Source of the DNA: Lichina pygmaea
Taxonomy: Eukaryota > Ascomycota > Lichinomycetes > Lichinales > Lichinaceae
Direction of reading: 5' to 3'
Assembly (NCBI GenBank): GCA_963422465.1
Contig: OY730174.1
Coordinates: forward strand, 1,054,001 to 1,118,000
DNA length: 64,000 bases
The position numbers and the translations under genes were made by a program. Under the pieces are notes generated by a model. It saw only the letters and a program-made list of their open reading frames with translations, searched no databases and was not told where the DNA came from. Below are positions 45,891-64,000 of this stretch, piece by piece; the first letter of the stretch is position 1, and each line of letters begins with the position of its first letter.

Positions 45891-46454
45891 TGTTACGACC
45901 CAGGAGGAACACAGTCTTTATATACTCACAGAAAGCAGCAGACAGGATACTGGACGGAAGTACCAGACAGCGTGACACGGGAACCAGTCACGTGACCGGC
46001 GAGACAAACCAGGGGGTGCTCGCCGCAGCATGCATATGCGTGAGCAGAGCTCACCCAGCTCGCCGCAGCGTGCATGAACAAGTGAGCAAAGTGAGCAGAG
46101 CTCACCCAGCTCGCCGCAGCGTGCATGAACCGTGAGCAAAGTGAGCAGAGCTCACCGATCTCACCGAGTGAGCAAAGTGAGCAGAGCTCACTGTGCTCAC
46201 GAACTGAGCACTATATAGTCCGGCGATAGTTCCCTTATGGAACGATCGTCTTCAACTCATGTTGTGATCCAGACAACTAGATCTACTTCAATACAATCCT
46301 TTTGTACAAAGCCATTGATCAGGTGTCATCACCACCACGTTCCACCAAACCCCTTCACACTCCTTGACACTCCTCTCCTGCGAGAACCAACCCGCCTTCC
46401 ACATCTCGCCCTAATCCTATACTCAGATAGGACGGTACGGTACGGACCGCAACA
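45891..46454 (+). mobile_element. Solo LTR of the gypsy-1 family inside the LINE
   Basis: 564 bp starting TGTTACGACC and ending CGCAACA, flanked by a perfect 5-bp target duplication TCCAG (45886-45890 and 46455-46459). The right two-thirds (CACTATATAGTCCGG, GTTCCCTTATGGAAC, onward) match the LTRs of the element at 48366-62837. The left third carries a different version of the internal dyad-repeat array. It arose by LTR-LTR recombination after insertion into the LINE 3' region. Fossil. Confidence 0.9.
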
Positions 46455-48365
46455 TCCAGCTCTGAAAAGAAAACTTGCTAGACCAATTCTCCCAGTTCTG
46501 GTTTGCAGTAGTAGACTTGCCTCAGCTTTCTGTAGCTCTTTGTAGAGCTTTAGGTTGTTGTAGTGAGGTTTTTGGCAAAACACCTGCCATCCAGCATAGC
46601 TTTTTCTTTTCTTCTCCTCCCATTGGTTTTCCCACTCTTTAGTAAAGAGTATTTGTAGTTCTTTCTTTGAACTAGCCTGGTTAGTAGTTATTTGACTTAA
46701 CCAAGTGAACTTCCAATTAGGAGAGATAGTTGAGGATTTCTTTAAAGGTTTCCTCAGTGAAGAAGCATAGGAAGAAATAGTAGAAAAGGTACTGTCAAGA
46801 AAGTCTTTCAGAGAGGAGGTTTGGATAGAAGATAGAAAACAAGCTGTGCGAAATTTAAAATAGAGATCTAGAGGTAAAAGAAAAAGCTCACTCTCTAATA
46901 GAAAAGAAGGAGTGGCTTTGAAAGCACCCCCAATAAGTCTCAGACATTTGTTTTGGAATATGATAAGAGAGGAAATATTAGAGGATTTTCTGAGTGGGTT
47001 GAACCAAATTCCCACTGCATAGCTCAGTACAGATCTGAGTATTGCAGTGTACACAAGGCGTGCTGTGAGAACTGGAAAGCCCCAGGTGGAGTAAGAGGTT
47101 CTAGAAAGAGAAGATAGTGCTTTTTGTGCTTTTTGAAGAATAATTCTCTGGTGTTTGTGCCAGTGGAGTTTGGCATCCAGGTACACTCCCAATACTCACA
47201 CTTCTTCTTTTGGTTTTAGAATCACATTCCCAAGTCTAAGCTTAAGCTGCAGATTGTCTGATCTTCTTCTGGAAAAATAAAGTATTTTATATTTCTCAGG
47301 AGAGAAGACCATTCCATGTCTTGCAGCCCAAGATAGATATTTAAGATGTGTATTCTTCAACTTCAGAAGGTTGCTTTTAAGAGAGTGTCCAAATGCAAGC
47401 AGATTTGTATCATCTGCAAATCCCAGAGCAGAAACACCAGTAGTAGGAGAATGTACAGTCTCATGAAGTTCAGAAATATAGAATAGAAAAAGAATAGGAG
47501 ACAAAGAGGAACCTTGGGGGACTCCACAGTGAATAGGAATAGAAGAGGACTCAGAGTCATCAAAAACTAGGGTGGTGGTACGTCTGGTACAGAAAGAGAA
47601 GATCCAAGAAGTTAGCCAGAGAGGGATTCCTTTTCTCTCCAGAATCTTTTGAAGAATCTCTGGGAGAACTCTGTCATATGCTCCTGAGATGTCCAGAGAA
47701 AGTAGAGATGCAACCATGCCTTCTTTCCAGACTTTTTCCACTTGGGAAGTTAGAAGGAAAAGTGCTGATTCAGTTGATCTGCCTTTCCTGAACCCCATCT
47801 GGATTTCTGGCAAGAGTTTAGCCTCTTCTGCTACCTTGCTTAGTCTGGCTGCTGTAATAGCTTCCATCAGCTTGCCAGTTGTGTTTAGCAGAGCTATAGG
47901 GCGCCAGGCTTTAGCTTGGTTATAGATTCCCTTGCCAGGTTTTCTTAGACAGACTGTTTTGGCATTCTTGAATCTCTCTGGAAAGTATTCCAGTCTCCAG
48001 CATGTTGATGTGAGAACAGCTATAGCTTGGCAGAACTTGGGACCCAGAGCTTTCAGAAATCCATTTGGCAGCTTGTCTTTTCCTCCTGCTGTAAAAGGTT
48101 TCTTCTTGTTCAGAATTTGCTCCACTTCTTCAGTGGTAACCTCCTGAGAAAGCTGGATATCTGGGGTACTCTGGTGACTTTCTGTACTTGGTTCTGGAAC
48201 ATGTGCTTCTGGAAAGAATTGAGCTGAGAAAGATTTTGTCTTCTCCTCAAAGCTTTTGGCCAGTCCTTCTTGAGTCTCCAGATCAGGGACCAGAGGAAGA
48301 TCAGAGGTCTTGTTAGCTTTTGATTTTCCCCACTTTGCAAGCTTCCAGAATTTTGAGGAACTGGC

Positions 48366-49055
48366 TGTTATGATCCCTGGGATGGGAGCCACTTATTTAT
48401 AGGCAATCAGGCCACGGGCCAGGCAAGAGGACACTATGGAAAGTCAAGTGACCAAACTGACAAAGGGTCACGTGACTGTCAAGACAAACACGGGTGTCTT
48501 GACGCAGCATGCATTAAGACAATCTCACCAGTCTTGATGCAGGGTACAGGAAGTGTCAAGACAATCTCACCTGTCTTGACACAGTGTGCATGAAGTATCA
48601 AGACAATCTCACCAGTCTTGACGCAGGATGCATAACATGGTGGGACTGTCAAGACAATCTCACCTATCTTGACACAGTGTGCATGAAGCATCAAGACAAT
48701 CTCACCGGTCTTGACGCAGAGTGCATAACATGGTGGGACTGTCAAGACAATCTCACCCATCTTGACATCAAGACTGTCAAGACAATCTTGATCATCTTGA
48801 CAGGCCAGCACTATATAGTCTGGTGATAGTTCCCTTATGGAACAATCGTCTTCAACTCATGTTGTGATCCAGACAACTAGATCTACTTCAATAAAATCCT
48901 TTTGTACGAAGCCATTGATCAGGTGTCACCACCACCATGTTCCACCAAACCCCTTCGTGCTCCTTGACACTCCTCTTCTGTGAGAACTAACCCACCTTCC
49001 ACATCTCACCCTTAATCCTATACTCAGTTAGGACAGCACAGTACAGACCACAACA
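48366..49055 (+). repeat. 5' LTR of gypsy-1
   Basis: 690 bp, TGTTATGATC to CACAACA. It contains a tandem array of hairpin-forming units (about 48477-48805), a TATA box in CACTATATAGTC (about 48809-48820) and the probable RNA start some 30 bp downstream. Confidence 0.93.
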
Positions 49056-51900: not shown

Positions 51901-53504
51901 ATTTTATTTTTTTTTATTTTTTATTTTTTATTCTTACACTGATTTAGCTGTAGAGCCATGCAGAACTTCTAGGTACATGTTTGTTTCTCCAGAAAACCTT
52001 TGGAGGAATAAAAACTGGAGCTTGGGAGAGACTAGGGAAAATCTTGTGGAATATGCAGTAGCTAAGGAAATTTGTACATGTAGCTATTTGTTAAAACAAA
52101 CAGTTGACTTGGTAGAGCTTAGAAAGAGAGTTGGTGGGCTAGGTTGAACTGGTCAAGTCTTTTCAAAGACATAAACCAGAAAAGAAGTTTAGGAAGTAGC
52201 TTGGAGGAGAATAAGATAGATGGGAAATCTTGTAGAGGGAATTGGACTTGTTGTCTTTGGTTTGAAAATTTGTTACAGAAAAAAGTGATGTGTTGGGCTG
52301 TTTCTTCTCCAAAACCACATGTGCATAGAGGGGAGTTAAAGTCTGGAACATTTGCTCTGAAAAGAAAACTGGCCAGTCCTACCACAGTTGAGCTATGCCG
52401 AGGCATAGCGCAGAGTCGACATCCTGTGCAGGGTCTCTGCCACACTTCCCCGCAGTCCTGAGGTCTTTTGCGCTCTGCCGTGTACACTCACCCCTAGGTC
52501 CTGCTTCGGAGTGCCGGGTTGCCAGCCTGGAGCCCACGCTCCAACTGCAGTTTGCTCCTTGAGCCTGTTATTTGCAGTCTGAGCCTGCACTCTGTACAGA
52601 CCGGCATGCGCTTCTGTCCTCTCAGGCCATATAGACAGTCTCGTAGTAGGCCCAGACCCTACTGCTGTCACTGCCATTATATGCCACGCCCCGCAGCTCT
52701 TGCTGTTTCGTGTTATCTCTGTAGATGTCTTGTACAGAGGCCGACCATGCCTCGCAGACTCTACGGACCCTGCAGGCCATGCCAGCACCTGCAGGACTGC
52801 CTTTCCAGCCCACTAACCAAGTAGGGAGAAGTCTCTGTCTGCCCGCTGTCATCTGTGGGACCCTGGATGTACGTGGTGGCCCACTGGAGAACCTCCAGTG
52901 CCCTAGCCCTAGTCTGTAGGTGGACTGAAGAGAATCTGTGGTAAGACCTTAGGCAAAACCATCAAGCCAGCACTTTGACTATCACACAGCCCTTAGGTAC
53001 TGGAGTGGTGGAAACTCTTCGTGCCACCTGCTCGCCTTCTTTAACACGTAGTCCCTGTTCGATTAACAACACCGCGGTACAGACATCACTCCCCTCCTAG
53101 AACAAGATCCTCAATGCATCAGCTGCTGGAGACTCTGCCAGAAGGGGGGTGTGTGATAGGAACTCCTCTTGTCTACTCCAGAGGTGCCCTGTCAGGTGTC
53201 TAGACTTCACATCCACCAGTTGCATGGCTGGCTTCAGGCTGTAGCGTACACGGTAGACATCTGTCAGGTGGTTTTCATAACCAGTTTGGTCGAAGTCCTC
53301 TGTTCTGCTGATGTCACTTCACGGGGGTGTCCAGGGTGCCTGCACAACACCTCCGGTGGCTTATCACTCCACGGGCACCAGCAGCTTGACCGGTGACTCA
53401 ATTAGCTCTCGGTGCAGTGACTACAAGCAGCTTGGGAGACTGCCTGCCATCACTGCCCTGAGGTTCCCAGCCTGCACCGCGTGGAGGTTTGAGTCTTCAC
53501 AGGC
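51901..53504 (-). mobile_element. Chimeric retroposon: repeat-R fragment fused to LINE 3' tail
   Basis: A 1604-bp insertion in gypsy-1, flanked by a perfect 12-bp duplication TGAATTCCTCAG (51889-51900 and 53505-53516). Read on the minus strand, the 5' part (53504-52387) matches 44091-45214 of repeat R. The 3' part (about 52386-51901) is the end of a LINE ORF2 (GLASFLFRANVPDFNSPLC, then GEETAQHITFFC), its 3' UTR and an A-rich tail. The long duplication and the tail at one end show LINE-type target-primed insertion of the whole chimera. The LINE tail is related to, but clearly distinct from, the one at 45.5-45.9 kb. Confidence 0.88.
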
Positions 53505-55056: not shown

Positions 55057-55480
55057 TGTTAAGGCCTAGGCTGGAACAGCCCAGGTAAGCGAGGGAGGAG
55101 TGTTAGTCATACAGAACAACATCTGACTGATCCGGTGGACAAGCAAGAGCTAAGCGAGGAGCTTGTCCGGTGGACAAGCAGGAGCTAAGCGAGGAGCTTG
55201 TCTGGTGGACAAGCAGTCCCTAAGCGAGGAGCTTGTCCACACAAAAGGATGATACCCCTCGAGGAGACCCCCCCCTCGGGGCATCTGTATAAAGACCCCC
55301 CAAAGGGCCCGGAGAGATTAGCTCTTCAGGCTGAACACCAATGCACACATCGTACGGAGACAATAGCACAGGAGAGTTACCCCACCTGTCTATTCCTCTA
55401 CCAAGTCTCTGTCTAGAATCCACCCTGCAAAGCAGCAAGACTGTACCGCCTTCTGTGTGAACCTGGCCCGGCCTTTAACA
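55057..55480 (+). repeat. 5' LTR of gypsy-2
   Basis: 424 bp, TGTTAAGGCC to CTTTAACA, with a TATA box in CTGTATAAAGAC (about 55285-55296). It holds three copies of a 35-bp unit (GTGGACAAGC.GGAGCTAAG type) at about 55130-55235, where the 3' LTR holds one. Confidence 0.92.
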
Positions 55481-58400: not shown

Positions 58401-60188
58401 ACAAATTCATCTCCACACCCATTTTGGCATTATTTGACTCCGAGAAGAGGATTATTTTGGAGACTGATGCCTCAGACCAAGCATTGGGATCCTGCTTGTG
58501 TCAACCAGACGCCGACAACCACTTACACCCTGTCGTGTACTGATCAAGAAAGTTCTCTGGCCCAGAACTGAGGTATGATGTTCATGACAAAGAATTGTTA
58601 GCAATCATCAACGTATTCCAAGAATGGAGGTCTTACTTGGAGAGGGCAAAATACACAGTGGACATGTACTCAGACCACAAGAACTTAGCTTACTTCACAA
58701 CAATAAAGAAGCTAAACTGACAACAAGTTCGATGGGCAGAGTTGTTGGCATCATACAACTTTCAAATCCTCTACCGGAAAGGCACTGAAAATGCTCAAGC
58801 GGACGCACTCAGCAGGTGACCAGACCTGATGGATGAAAAAACAACAGAGGAACACCCAATCCTAGCGATGAAAGGACAAACCCTGGTCTATGCCCAACCC
58901 CAACTGGCAACAACTGAAACAAAGAGTCCACTCCTTACCCTTGGCCACAAGGTGGCAAACAAAAAGGAAATTGTGCCAGAAAGAGCACAAGAGGAGGTGA
59001 TCCAGAGGCACCATGACAGACCTTTGCACAGACACCCCAGGCAAGATAAAACCTTGGAGAAAATCCAAAGGAACTACCACTTTGATGGAATGAAGCACAA
59101 GGTGACAGAGTTCATTCGCAACTGCGAACAGTGTGCGAAGAACAAACCATCAAGACATAAGCCCTACAGGCAGGCACAGCAAATGGACCTACCCGAGGCA
59201 CTATGGGAAACTATCACGATGGATTTTGTGGTCAAGTTGCCAAAGTCAACAGACTCAGCAACAAAGGTGGTATATAATAGTATTTTGGTGGTTGTTGACA
59301 AGCTCACCAAATACACCCACCTGGTCCTATGGAAAGAGTCAGGAACCGCAAACAAACTTGCGAGTGTCCTACTCAAAGAGTTAGTAAGCCACTGAGGGCT
59401 ACCAAAAACAATCATCTCAGATCAAGACAAACTCTTCACCTTGAAATTCTGGAACACGTGGACAAGGCAACTTGGCATTGATACAAGGATGTTAACAGCC
59501 TACCACCCACAAACTGACAGACAAACTGAGCAGACAAACCAGACAATGGAGCAGTATCTACAACACTACATCAACCACCAGCAGGATAACTGGGTGGAAC
59601 TGCTACCAATAGCACAGTTTACGTACAACAACCAGCAACACAGTGTGACAGGGACAACACTGTTCTTTGCAAACTACGGAAGAAACCCCTGATGGCAGGC
59701 AACAGCAGGAGGCAATATTGTCAATATTGATAAACTCGCTGCTATGCACAAGATGATGAAAACAACAATCAACTGTGCCCAGAACACTACCACCCACTGA
59801 CTGCACAACAAAAGGTTGAAGGGACCAACCCTGGAAAGGGGGGATAAGGTCTACCTATCAACAAAAAACCTGCGCTTGAAGTGACCAAGCAAAAAGCTGG
59901 ACCACGTACAAATCAGACCATTCGAAATCAAGAAGCGCACTGGGAAAGTCAACTATCGACTGAGACTACCACGAAAAGTAAGGATACACCGAGTATTCCA
60001 CGTCTCACTGCTCGAACCAGCGCCCAGCGACGCAGAGATTGAAACAGAATAGAACTTCAAGGATGATGAAGAAGAGTACAATGTTGAAAGAATCCTGGAT
60101 AGCTGAAGAAACAGACAGAAAATCAAGTACCTGGTGAAGTGGTTAGGATTTGACAAAGAGGAGAATTTGTGGGAACCAACCGAGAACT

Positions 60189-60740
60189 TCAGCCCTGCGA
60201 TGAACCAGAAGCTGGTGGATTACCACCAAGCAAACCCGCAGTGACCAGGTCTGACAGCGACAACAGCTTGAGAGGAGTCAAAGTCTCTGAGGAGAAGATG
60301 TCCTCAAAGGATAGCAGAGCAGCAGTCTGACTGGCCTCCTGTTCACAAATAACATGGAGAGTCTTCTGCTCCTGAGCATCAAGGGACTCTTGATCCTTGA
60401 TGGCTGACAGCTTACGACAGATGGCATCAGCCTCTTTCTGAGAGAGATAACCCAGCTGCCAGTGGAGACAGATCTGCCAGGGAAGTAACTTCAACAATTG
60501 GTCATCAGTCTCTTGCAGCTGAGCCTCAAGCTGCTCGCACTCAAGTTCCATCTTCTTCCATTCTGATTCTGAGAGATGAAGGTTGCAGTGACAACCCTTC
60601 TCAACACACCGACAACAAAAAGATGATGTGGAGCTCACAACACACTTGGCGTGGTCATGATGATAAGCACCGCATGCGATTTTCGATTCCTTGCCTATTT
60701 TGCCAATACAACAAGAAAGAGAACTGCGACGACAAGTTCA
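60189..60740 (-). other. Antisense Cys-rich frame of gypsy-2
   Basis: An open stretch on the strand opposite to gag-pol, between the chromodomain and the 3' LTR, overlapping the chromodomain end tail-to-tail. It encodes a Cys/His-rich start (KIACGAYHHDHAKC, then CCRCVEKGCHC) followed by an acidic coiled coil (SEWKKMELECEQLEAQLQET) and Leu-rich helices. No ATG lies at its beginning, so it may be a fossil or need upstream sequence. The same layout occurs in gypsy-1. Confidence 0.6.
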
Positions 60741-60822
60741 AGTTGTCTGATCTTGGTTCATGACAAAAAAGAAGTAGGAACAAAAAGGATCTGGGGACAG
60801 AATCCTTGGAGGGAGAGGATAG

Positions 60823-61176
60823 TGTTAAGGCCTAGGCTGGAACAGCCCAGGTAAGCGAGGGAGGAGTGTTAGTCATACAGAACAACATCTGACTGATCTG
60901 GTGGACAAGCAAGAGCTAAGTGAGGAGCTTGTCCACACAAAAGGATGATACCCCTCAAGGAGACCCCCCCCTTGGGGCATCTGTATAAAGACCCCCCAAA
61001 GGGCCCGGAGAGATTAGCTCTCCAGGCTGAACACCAATGCACACATCGTACTGAGACAATAGCACAGAAGAGTTACCCCACCTGTCTATTCCTCTACCGA
61101 GTCTCTGTCTAGAATCCACCCTGCGAAGCAGCAAGACTGTACCGCCTTCTGTGTGAACCCGGCCTGGCCTTTAACA
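60823..61176 (+). repeat. 3' LTR of gypsy-2
   Basis: 354 bp, otherwise nearly identical to the 5' LTR but with a single 35-bp unit instead of three; the 70-bp difference equals exactly two units. Confidence 0.92.
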
Positions 61177-61761
61177 ACATGATGATGAGGCACTACCTTC
61201 AAGAGACCTCAGAAAAGATACAACACCAAATAGACAAAAAATTGAAAATGGCACCTCAGCTGAAGAAGGGGGATAAAGTCTACCTCTTCACAAAAAATTG
61301 GAAAGTCAAGAAACCAAGAACAAAGAAACTAGACCATGTCAAGGTCAGACTGTTTTCAGTTGAAGAAAGAACTGGACCAGTCAACGTCAGACTGCGACTA
61401 CCGAGAGACGCTTGGGTACACCCAAACTTTCACATCTCAATGATCAAATTAGCTGACCAGAGCACACCCTTGCAGGAAACATTTCATTACCAACCAGAGG
61501 AAGAACAGGAATTCAAGGTCAAACATATTCTGAAGAGAAAAGGTCAGCGATACCTTGTCAAGTGGAAAAACTACCCAGACTCGGAAAATACCTGGGAACC
61601 ACTCAGGAACCTCACAAACTGCCAGCTCCTCCTGCAGTAGTTCTGGCAGAAGCAGGACTGAACAGCTTGGCCTGCAGTGTGGACACGTCAATGACTGTCA
61701 CCGACAAGTCTTCACCATCCACCTCTATTTCAGTAACAAGGCACTGGAGCTTCTTTCTTGC

Positions 61762-62103
61762 TTAACCCTCAGCACCTTCAAGAACCTTTCGCTTTCGGGA
61801 CACACAAGCCTGCAGCTTGGCAAGCTGCTCAACAAGAGTATCCTGCTTGGCTTCATCAACAGCCAAATCCTCGCAAAGGTTATCTTGGGTCATGTTCAGC
61901 GACTCCCAAGAAAGTGATACACAGGACTTCCCATGACAAGTGCATTCAGCGCACTTCAACTTATTGTTGTTGTCAGACATTTGGAAACAGGACTTGTGGT
62001 TCAAAACACAGAAGTCACACGGAGCAAGTGACATAAAGTTATGATCACAGATCTGGGCTGCCAGTTGTCTTCGGTAAGCAGAGGCATGTGATTTCGCAGA
62101 CAT
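61762..62103 (-). other. Antisense Cys-rich frame of gypsy-1
   Basis: A frame of 113 codons with an ATG at 62103 (MSAKSHASAYRR), on the strand opposite to gag-pol, between the chromodomain and the 3' LTR. It has a Cys-rich block (CDFCVLNHKSC, then KCAECTCHGKSC) followed by an acidic helical segment (DLAVDEAKQDTLVEQLAKLQ) and a basic end CVSRKRKVLE. The C-x2-C-x5-C plus C-x2-C-x4-K-x-C spacing suggests two small metal-binding units. The frame remains open longer than expected in such a degraded neighbourhood. Confidence 0.65.
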
Positions 62104-62147: not shown

Positions 62148-62837
62148 TGTTACGATCCCTGGGATGGGAGCCACTCATTTATAGGCAATCAGGCCGCGGG
62201 CCAGGCAAGAGGACACCATGGAAAGTCAAGTGACCAAACTGACAAAGGGTCACGTGACTGTTGAGACAAACACGGGTGTCTCAACACAGTATGCATCAAG
62301 ACAATCTCACCAGTCTTGATGCAGGGTACAGGAAGTGTTGAGACAATCTTACCTGTCTTGACACAGTGTGCATGAAGCATCAAGACAATCTCACCAGTCT
62401 CGACGCAGGATGCATAACATGGTGGGACTGTCAAGACAATCTCACCTGTCTTGACACAGTGTGCATGAAGCATCAAGACAATCTCACCAGTCTTGACACA
62501 GAGTGCATAACATGGTGGGACTGTCAAGACAATCTCACCCATCTTGATGTCAAGACTGTCAAGACAATCTTGATCATCTTGACAGGCCAGCACTATATAG
62601 TCCGGTGATAGTTCCCTTATGGAACAATCATCTTCAACTCATGTTGTGATCCAGACAACTAGATCTACTTTAATACAATCCTTTTGTACGAAGCCATTGA
62701 TCAGGTGTCACCACCACCACGTTCCACCAAACCCCTTTGCGCTCCTTGACACTCCTCTTCTGCGAGAACCAACCCGCCTTCCGCATCTCGCCCTTAATCC
62801 TATACTCAGTTAGGACAGCACGGTACAGACCGCAACA
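62148..62837 (+). repeat. 3' LTR of gypsy-1
   Basis: 690 bp, the same length as the 5' LTR, preceded by a purine tract (AAAGGAGAGGAGGG). Differences from the 5' LTR are mainly transitions, some of them in paired hairpin positions. Confidence 0.93.
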
Positions 62838-64000
62838 CTGGCTAGCTCATGAACTTGTTTTCTGAAGGTGTTCTGTTTGCCTTCTCTGACAGCTTTCTTC
62901 TTGAGCTTAGTTGCTTCTTCTAGCTCTTCTTGGCTTACCTGTCCTCTGAGCACTTGTTTTCTTATTCTTCTTTCCTGCTTAACTTTAGTTTGGATCTCTT
63001 GGTTCCACCAGGGGACTGAGTGGCTAGATTGCTTCTGGAGTTCTGTGCATCTGTCTGCTATTTCTTGGAGAAAGTGGTTAAGATATTCCAAGTACTCATC
63101 CACTTCATGTTTATCTTGAAAGTGGAAGGGCAGCTGCAAATTATTACACTCTTGTTTTGCCAGATTTGTGTCCAGTGTTTTCCAGTTCCTTTCTGGCTTC
63201 CAGGTTTTTCTTGGTGAGTCCAGGTCCAGGCTAGTTAGCACAGGTCTGTGGTCAGACCTATGAAAGAACTGCAAAGCAATTTTAGAAAAGATTAGAGAGT
63301 TAGAAAGAGAAGAAGATATAAAGGAAAGATCAAAAGGTGAACAGGGTTTGTGGGAAAGAGATCTAGCTCTTGTGGGTGTAAAAGGTGCAATAGCTAACTC
63401 CAGATTTGAGTTTTTCATTAGAGTTTGGAACTTGTGTGCAGTGTCAGAATATAGTCTTCTTTTCTTTGACCAGTCAGAGTGGTGAAGATTTGAGTCTGTA
63501 AGAAGAATATACTGCCCTTTTGCTTGTAAAGCATTTTGGAGTAGACAGAGAAGAGCTTCTGATGCTTGTAGGTAGTTCTCTTGACTTGAGGGAGTGAAGT
63601 ATAGATTATGCACTCACAGAGAAGTAGAGGTGTTTTCCAGATGAATTTCAAGAGAAACAAAGTCTTTACTCCAGAAAGTAGGGTGGAGAGATGACAGTTT
63701 CAGGTTTTTGTTAATAAGAAAAAGAGTTCTGCCAATCTCTGGAGAATATAAAGGAAGAAAAGAAGAAAAAACAGTTGAGGTGCTGGTTTGAAGGTGAGGA
63801 TTCTTCCAGGGTTCTTGAAGTGCAATAATATCTACTTCTTGAAGAGTTGGGGTTGCTAGAAGTAGCTCTTGGACTGATTGGCTTTTCTGCACATTGTATT
63901 GAAGAAGTGTGAACTTTGTATTCTTCATGTAGACATTTCATCTTCAAAGATCTTGAAGGGGTTGACTGACTGCTTTCTCCCTGTGTTTGTTGATCTTGTA

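Follow-up and report, generated by a model that had tools for sequence, protein, structure and literature searches.

The window, a stretch of 64,000 nucleotides of Lichina pygmaea DNA (contig OY730174.1), contains two chromovirus LTR retrotransposons, gypsy-1 and gypsy-2, each of which carries a gene on its antisense strand close to the 3′ LTR (Table 1). LTR pairs and target duplications place gypsy-2 within gypsy-1. In both elements, Pfam identified a chromodomain upstream of the antisense frame, at the end of pol. The preliminary description had located the frames between chromodomain and 3′ LTR. This holds for the chromodomain core, but the gene does not lie wholly outside pol: in all 10 copies measured, the two genes run into each other tail to tail, with 38-146 nt in common. 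The start codon of the antisense gene was 43-61 nt from the LTR in all 13 copies measured (44 nt for the gypsy-1 ATG at 62103), so that the region 5′ of it consists of the polypurine tract and U3. The window gypsy-1 also has an ATG within its LTR (62178), which was rejected as the usual start because 15 of 15 open copies (1b) lack it.

Table 1. Coordinates of antisense genes, chromodomains, LTRs and U3 elements in the window
Feature	Position	Strand	Remarks
gypsy-1 antisense gene, window copy	61762..62103	-	114 codons, cut short by in-frame stop; ATG at 62103
gypsy-1 six-cysteine stretch, C-x2-C-x6-C-x11-C-x2-C-x6-C	61921..62019	-	
gypsy-2 antisense gene, window copy	60189..60761	-	one in-frame stop, 60738-60740
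gypsy-2 six-cysteine stretch, C-x2-C-x6-C-x8-C-x2-C-x6-C	60585..60674	-	second Cys is Tyr in window copy; Cys in 29/30 copies
gypsy-1 chromodomain	61521..61637	+	PF00385, 3.3e-13
gypsy-2 chromodomain	60116..60223	+	PF00385, 1.9e-8
gypsy-1 3′ LTR	62148..62837	+	5′ LTR 48366-49055; target duplication CTGGC
gypsy-2 3′ LTR	60823..61176	+	5′ LTR 55057-55480; target duplication ACACG/ACATG
gypsy-1 U3 inverted half-site array, mostly TYRAGAC-N10-GTCTYRA	62260..62585	.	5′ of sense TATA; related array in 5′ LTR
gypsy-2 U3 inverted repeat, GTGGACAAGC-N16-GCTTGTCCAC	60901..60936	.	
Antisense TATA-like box in gypsy-1 3′ LTR	62178..62183	-	79-80 nt 5′ of antisense ATG in 47/50 copies
gypsy-1 LTR sense TATA-like box	62594..62599	+	read directly from sequence

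Open relatives elsewhere in the genome encode full-length antisense proteins of 166 aa (gypsy-1) and 190 aa (gypsy-2), and both window copies are therefore damaged. The end equivalent to that of the 166-codon frame falls at about 61606 in the window, and the gypsy-1 frame, read past codon 114, meets one more stop close to its end. The gypsy-2 frame is open over 60189-60737, with its start likely at the ATG at 60761.

The surroundings of these genes yielded several side observations. LINE frames lie on the minus strand at either side of gypsy-1 (46329-48392, with RVT_1 at 47196-48392, and 62810-63928, with Exo_endo_phos_2 at 62810-63613; Pfam). As these same-strand frames occupy both flanks, the likely history is insertion of gypsy-1 into a LINE and of gypsy-2 into gypsy-1, giving a three-deep nest. 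Beside the LINE, LTR sequence of another family described below (L081-type), with GTGAGC arrays, occupies 45950-46454 and is perhaps a solo LTR. In the window gypsy-2, the LTRs are of unequal length (424 bp at 55057-55480 and 354 bp at 60823-61176), as if a U3 repeat unit had been gained or lost. Finally, gypsy-1 pol at about 52090-52490 of the window and the antisense frame of another gypsy-1 copy (L008) are both broken by foreign sequence of a similar kind (peptide around YSYTDLAVEPCRTSRYM / YSYSDLAGEPCRTSRYM), which looks like a mobile fragment inserted at separate sites.

When the genome (32.47 Mb, 8 contigs) was searched with the protein of each antisense frame, there were at least 150 matching places for gypsy-1 at 80% identity or more (best 150 of 511 candidates) and at least 150 for gypsy-2 at 75% or more (best 150 of 269). 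An independent start was made from chromodomains, using a genome search for PF00385 (best 150 of 966 candidates). Three of these loci (L081, L082 and L083) were picked because their pol frames were long and open and their match lengths differed, and all three carried an antisense frame at the equivalent place. L081 and L083 belong to one family, whose protein is ~70% identical to that of gypsy-1. L082 represents a further family, with a protein 55-61% identical to that of gypsy-2.

An opposite-strand match was present directly downstream, at a fixed distance, for 121 of the 150 best chromodomain matches, as judged from partial match lists (150 of 150 rows for the L081 type, 43 of 150 for the L082 type, 25 of 150 for gypsy-1, chosen by eye near chromodomain matches, and none for gypsy-2). 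Median distances from chromodomain to match were -44 nt (89 L081-type), +112 nt (23 gypsy-1-type) and -38 nt (9 L082-type). When every seventh of the remaining 29 chromodomain matches was sampled, the antisense frame was found in 4 of 4, one with an internal deletion. Matches to the L082 protein at 60-67% identity with 194-codon frames (C2:2666798, C5:3904103, C4:3627715 and similar rows) suggest at least one additional gypsy-2-like family. No relatives were detected in viral contigs (alignments A3 and A4) or genome contigs (A4); these collections are viral or prokaryotic and uninformative on fungal spread.

Many copies have decayed. Sixteen of 50 fetched gypsy-1 copies were fully open from the ATG, which overstates the open share because 20 of the fetched loci were selected mainly for having no or few stops. 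Eight of 30 fetched gypsy-2 copies were fully open, 7 of them with the ATG, and 18 of the 30 have a stop at codon 8. By hand count, the matched stretch was free of stops in 28 of 150 gypsy-1 rows (138-residue query; best 150 of 511), 8 of 150 L081-type rows (best 150 listed), 104 of 150 gypsy-2 rows (best 150 of 269, with a query taken from downstream of the stop near the N-terminus in the window copy) and, among the matches listed, 53 of 61 L082-type rows at 86% identity or more. Differences between the paired LTRs of gypsy-1 and gypsy-2 are almost all transitions. The gypsy-1 pair (48366-49055 and 62148-62837) shows 17 changes in CpG, 17 in CpA and 1 transversion, and the gypsy-2 pair (55057-55480 and 60823-61176) shows 8 in CpG, 2 in CpC and 1 transversion. 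These changes represent RIP-like decay, in a context that may differ between the two elements.

Codon-level comparison between families revealed purifying selection on the antisense frames. For gypsy-1 vs L081, dN/dS (NG86) was 0.14-0.22 across 49 of 50 fetched copies (L008 was omitted for its insertion), and for gypsy-2 vs L082 it was 0.21-0.33 across all 30. Open copies alone gave 0.14-0.19 (15 gypsy-1) and 0.24-0.28 (7 gypsy-2). As a yardstick, the chromodomain end of pol gave 0.24-0.48. Four of the five other reading frames yielded 0.80-1.89, the mirror frame, which shares its third positions with the antisense frame, yielded 0.23-0.42, and stops were present in all five. With the pol overlap removed, dN/dS was 0.066-0.107 for gypsy-1 (the 5 of 15 open-copy pairs with finite dS, 10 being saturated) and 0.184-0.218 for gypsy-2 (7 of 7 open copies). 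We also reshuffled the observed differences among sites sharing the base. In the four pairs tested, 39-51 amino-acid differences were observed, compared with minima of 58-63 over 1000 permutations.

Given this purifying selection between families, the antisense frames are, nearly certainly, genuine protein-coding accessory genes of a chromovirus lineage. The preliminary description had proposed antisense accessory genes of retroelements, and both their recurrence (at least 150 places per frame) and their constraint agree with that proposal. The comparison of synonymous and non-synonymous change that it called for came out on the side of selection (49 and 30 copies), and antisense matches between chromodomain and LTR were found in other copies (121 of 150 from the partial lists, plus 4 of 4 sampled). 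It had named missing positional homologues and unconstrained codons as evidence to the contrary; two further chromovirus families in the genome have homologues at that position, and the codons are constrained.

The proteins share a hexad of cysteines. Each hexad position is Cys in 48-50 of 50 gypsy-1 copies and in 27-30 of 30 gypsy-2 copies, and the complete hexad is present in 46 of 50 and 25 of 30, respectively. L081 has the full hexad. The fetched L082 copy is without the sixth Cys, which is present in 44 of 45 L082-type pattern matches. The spacing common to all four families is C-x2-C-x6-C-x8/11-C-x2-C-x6-C. When conserved cysteines were placed at random, this spacing arose in 0 of 200000 trials for 7 of 166 residues, again in 0 of 200000 for 8 of 190, in 1 of 200000 for 9 of 190 (with one extra gypsy-2 column) and in 6 of 200000 for 11 of 166.

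Most of the Cys columns that vary also contain Arg or His (50 gypsy-1 and 30 gypsy-2 copies), as decay of CGY codons would give. The striking Cys richness of single copies is thus partly a product of CpG decay of Arg (CGY) codons, and Cys richness by itself was dropped as a criterion. For the Cys cluster singled out in the preliminary description, six near-constant cysteines stand, but decay has swollen the remainder: of the five cysteines in CCRCVEKGCHC, two fall in columns reading C/H/R and C/H/Y (30 copies). Its account of two dissimilar peptides in the same layout was confirmed, as the two protein types occupy a common position and were not significantly alignable (hhalign P 0.086 and 0.072). 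The best alignment, itself non-significant, sets the hexads in register. Sequence homology between the types was accordingly set aside, and what links them is the hexad and the place only.

The Zn(II)2Cys6 (Gal4-type, PF00172) consensus is C-x2-C-x6-C-x5-12-C-x2-C-x6-8-C, and the antisense hexad has this spacing. The preliminary description had likened the proteins to short fungal hypothetical proteins with a Cys-rich head followed by a SEW-type coiled coil, a group to which they may belong. None of 10 sequences scanned matched Pfam Zn_clus (PF00172) or Pfam bZIP, and a PDB sequence search returned nothing below E 0.24. AlphaFold modelling of both window copies gave mean pLDDT of 47 and 42, with helices after the Cys stretch. 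Because these models are poor, the helices are a weak prediction. Given no Zn_clus match, no significant alignment and poor models, we suggest that the antisense protein may work like a Zn2Cys6 regulator and do not claim that it is one.

Candidate target sites lie in the same LTRs. Inverted half-sites occur in the U3 of all four families, 5′ of the sense TATA: TYRAGAC (gypsy-1), GTGAGC (L081), GTGGAYRAG (gypsy-2) and the GTGGACGAG form of the latter (L082). The best U3 inverted repeat was equalled in 15 (gypsy-1), 3 (L081), 8 (gypsy-2) and 3 (L082) of 2000 dinucleotide shuffles. For single repeat units the counts were 2 (gypsy-1), 1 (L082) and 22 (L081) of 2000, the L081 result being weaker. 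Inverted-repeat scores were 10-12 in U3 regions of 158-447 nt, compared with at most 8 in 30 gag-pol windows and at most 9 in 45 other windows, all control windows being 300 nt long. The four R-U5 regions scored at most 9, a value attained by that of L082.

The gypsy-1 dyads have a fixed internal spacing: of 298 close pairs of half-sites, 248 are 10 bp apart. Genome-wide, TYRAGAC-N10-GTCTYRA occurs 2,970 times and its N11 variant once; the backwards pattern, used as a control, occurs once for N10 and 12 times for N11. Successive dyads are variably spaced in the places listed (35, 42, 51 and more). In 47 of 50 gypsy-1 copies, and also in L081, an antisense TATA precedes the antisense ATG by 75-80 bp; none was found near the ATG in gypsy-2 (0 of 30) or L082. 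The gypsy-1 type thus holds sense TATA, dyads and antisense TATA within one U3.

Comparison of LTR parts revealed a contrast between R-U5 and U3 in one family pair. In 6 of 6 pairs, the R-U5 regions of gypsy-1 (window 62594-62837) and L081 (968-1215) are 97-98% identical, compared with 56-58% for U3 and 72-73% for the antisense gene. No such contrast was seen between gypsy-2 and L082 (R-U5 61-71%, U3 62-72%). The gypsy-1/L081 pattern is consistent with R-U5 exchange between families that keep their own U3 and antisense gene, as expected if minus-strand strong-stop DNA jumped between co-packaged RNAs of different families. Gypsy-2 and L082 have similar cysteine loops and the common half-site GTGGAYRAG, while gypsy-1 and L081 differ in both the first Cys loop and the half-sites. 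The apparent agreement of loop with half-site comes from these two family pairs only.

We give even weight to the proposal that the antisense protein is an accessory DNA-binding protein, probably dimeric, that is driven by the LTR, regulates itself and acts family-specifically on the U3 dyads. The preliminary description had suggested a nucleic-acid-binding regulator or a silencing antagonist; the former is compatible with the present findings and is narrowed here to a Zn2Cys6-like DNA-binding protein that would act on its own U3. Expression of the gene would run leftward out of U3 in the 3′ LTR and give a small protein (166-190 aa) with a Gal4-like six-cysteine head that probably binds zinc. 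The part behind this head would probably be helical and dimerising, and the dimer would bind the candidate inverted half-sites in its own U3. Binding might raise LTR transcription, lift silencing or set its level, the direction being one that we infer. More tentatively, and with some doubt, we put forward a fuller model, in which a chromovirus-borne antisense Zn2Cys6-like dimer, driven from the 3′ LTR, would co-evolve with fixed-spacing U3 dyads. Such a regulator-operator pair would give each family private transcription or anti-silencing, as a retroelement counterpart of VANC.

We consider it unlikely that the gene, though real, encodes an RNA- or protein-binding product (nucleocapsid-, Tat- or Rev-like) and that the U3 dyads are host transcription factor sites. 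The missing Zn_clus match would fit such a product, and Cys clusters with helices are found in RNA-binding accessory proteins too. The position of the dyads 5′ of the TATA is where host activator sites would be, and dyads inside tandem repeats may be host factor sites. However, the hexad is spaced like a binuclear zinc cluster, unlike a zinc knuckle (C-x2-C-x4-H-x4-C). Moreover, the dyads of gypsy-1 and L081 differ despite their near-identical R-U5 (97-98%), which would be odd for a shared host factor.

The same protein and sites could instead form a self-limiting repressor that controls copy number, in place of an activator or anti-silencer, which we rate as rather improbable. The L081 and L082 arrays precede the sense TATA by roughly 10-180 bp and would permit either sign. 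Convergent antisense transcription can, in addition, by itself damp sense transcription. Nothing speaks directly against repression, but with at least 150 copies of a family and 2,970 sites, copy number has not been kept low.

It is very improbable that the antisense RNA is the functional product, as dsRNA or silencing trigger, with the frame incidental. Antisense transcripts of plant elements are discussed as RNA regulators in the available parts of one account (PMC7264820). Here, however, dN/dS of 0.14-0.33 over all usable copies and a constant Cys hexad stand beside other frames that are near 1 and carry stops, and dN/dS together with the permutation result rules out an incidental frame. 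It is scarcely credible that the open frame is an artefact, produced by sequence composition or by the pol end that it overlaps: the last 31 codons (L081) or 48 codons (L082) do overlap pol, but constraint persists and is no weaker outside the overlap, which rules out pol as its source.

A DNA-binding regulator acting on its own U3 would have several consequences. With a spacing signature and defined candidate sites in the same LTR, the question is reducible to binding and reporter assays. If the proposal is true, retrotransposons bring their own regulator-operator pairs, and families that share a cell and near-identical R-U5 remain separately controlled. In that case, some orphan Cys-rich fungal proteins may likewise be element genes or descendants of them. 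An antisense gene in this position is already known in Boty (brtn), and plant elements have similar genes. New here are the hexad spacing behind the decay-inflated Cys richness, the U3 dyads of each family and the antisense TATA of the gypsy-1 type. Among the open-licence PMC papers listed, none described a Zn2Cys6-like antisense retroelement gene with cognate U3 dyads.

Among known systems, Gal4-type Zn(II)2Cys6 regulators resemble the antisense protein in hexad spacing, basic loop residues and paired half-sites in the candidate target DNA. In contrast, the antisense protein is much smaller and without a Pfam match, and its helix after the cluster is weakly predicted. HBZ of HTLV-1, the retroviral parallel, is a bZIP protein, whereas the protein here has its Cys hexad in the head and does not match Pfam bZIP. 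In both cases an antisense gene has its probable start within the 3′ LTR, and the product resembles a regulator; the HTLV antisense promoter lies in the 3′ LTR (PMC7264820), and HBZ is named in PMC11963269. The plant aORF-3R genes (Grande gene23, RIRE2, Retand and PvRetro13) include some suspected DNA binders (PMC7264820, PMC11963269). Retand, as described in the portions available, belongs to a non-chromovirus lineage and has domains such as TRP28 and SMC, among others, and a long 3′ region, whereas here 43-61 nt separate the antisense ATG from the LTR and the upstream region is U3.

A further known system is brtn, an antisense gene published in 2011 at the corresponding place in Boty of Botrytis cinerea (PMC7264820, PMC8365987, PMC4227169, PMC5987419). 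The likeness, as judged from published descriptions, is that of an antisense gene in this position. Its descriptions, in the parts available, do not mention the features found here, namely the Cys hexad, U3 dyads and antisense TATA. The parallel for proteins that an element carries together with family-specific motif arrays is VANC of the Arabidopsis VANDAL transposons, whose binding and anti-silencing have been shown experimentally (PMC5735166). VANDALs combine an element-borne gene with family-specific short motifs as tandem repeats in the non-coding DNA of the element, and family-specific motif arrays are likewise present here, in the U3 of four families. VANDALs differ in not being LTR elements, and fixed-spacing dyads go unmentioned in the available account.
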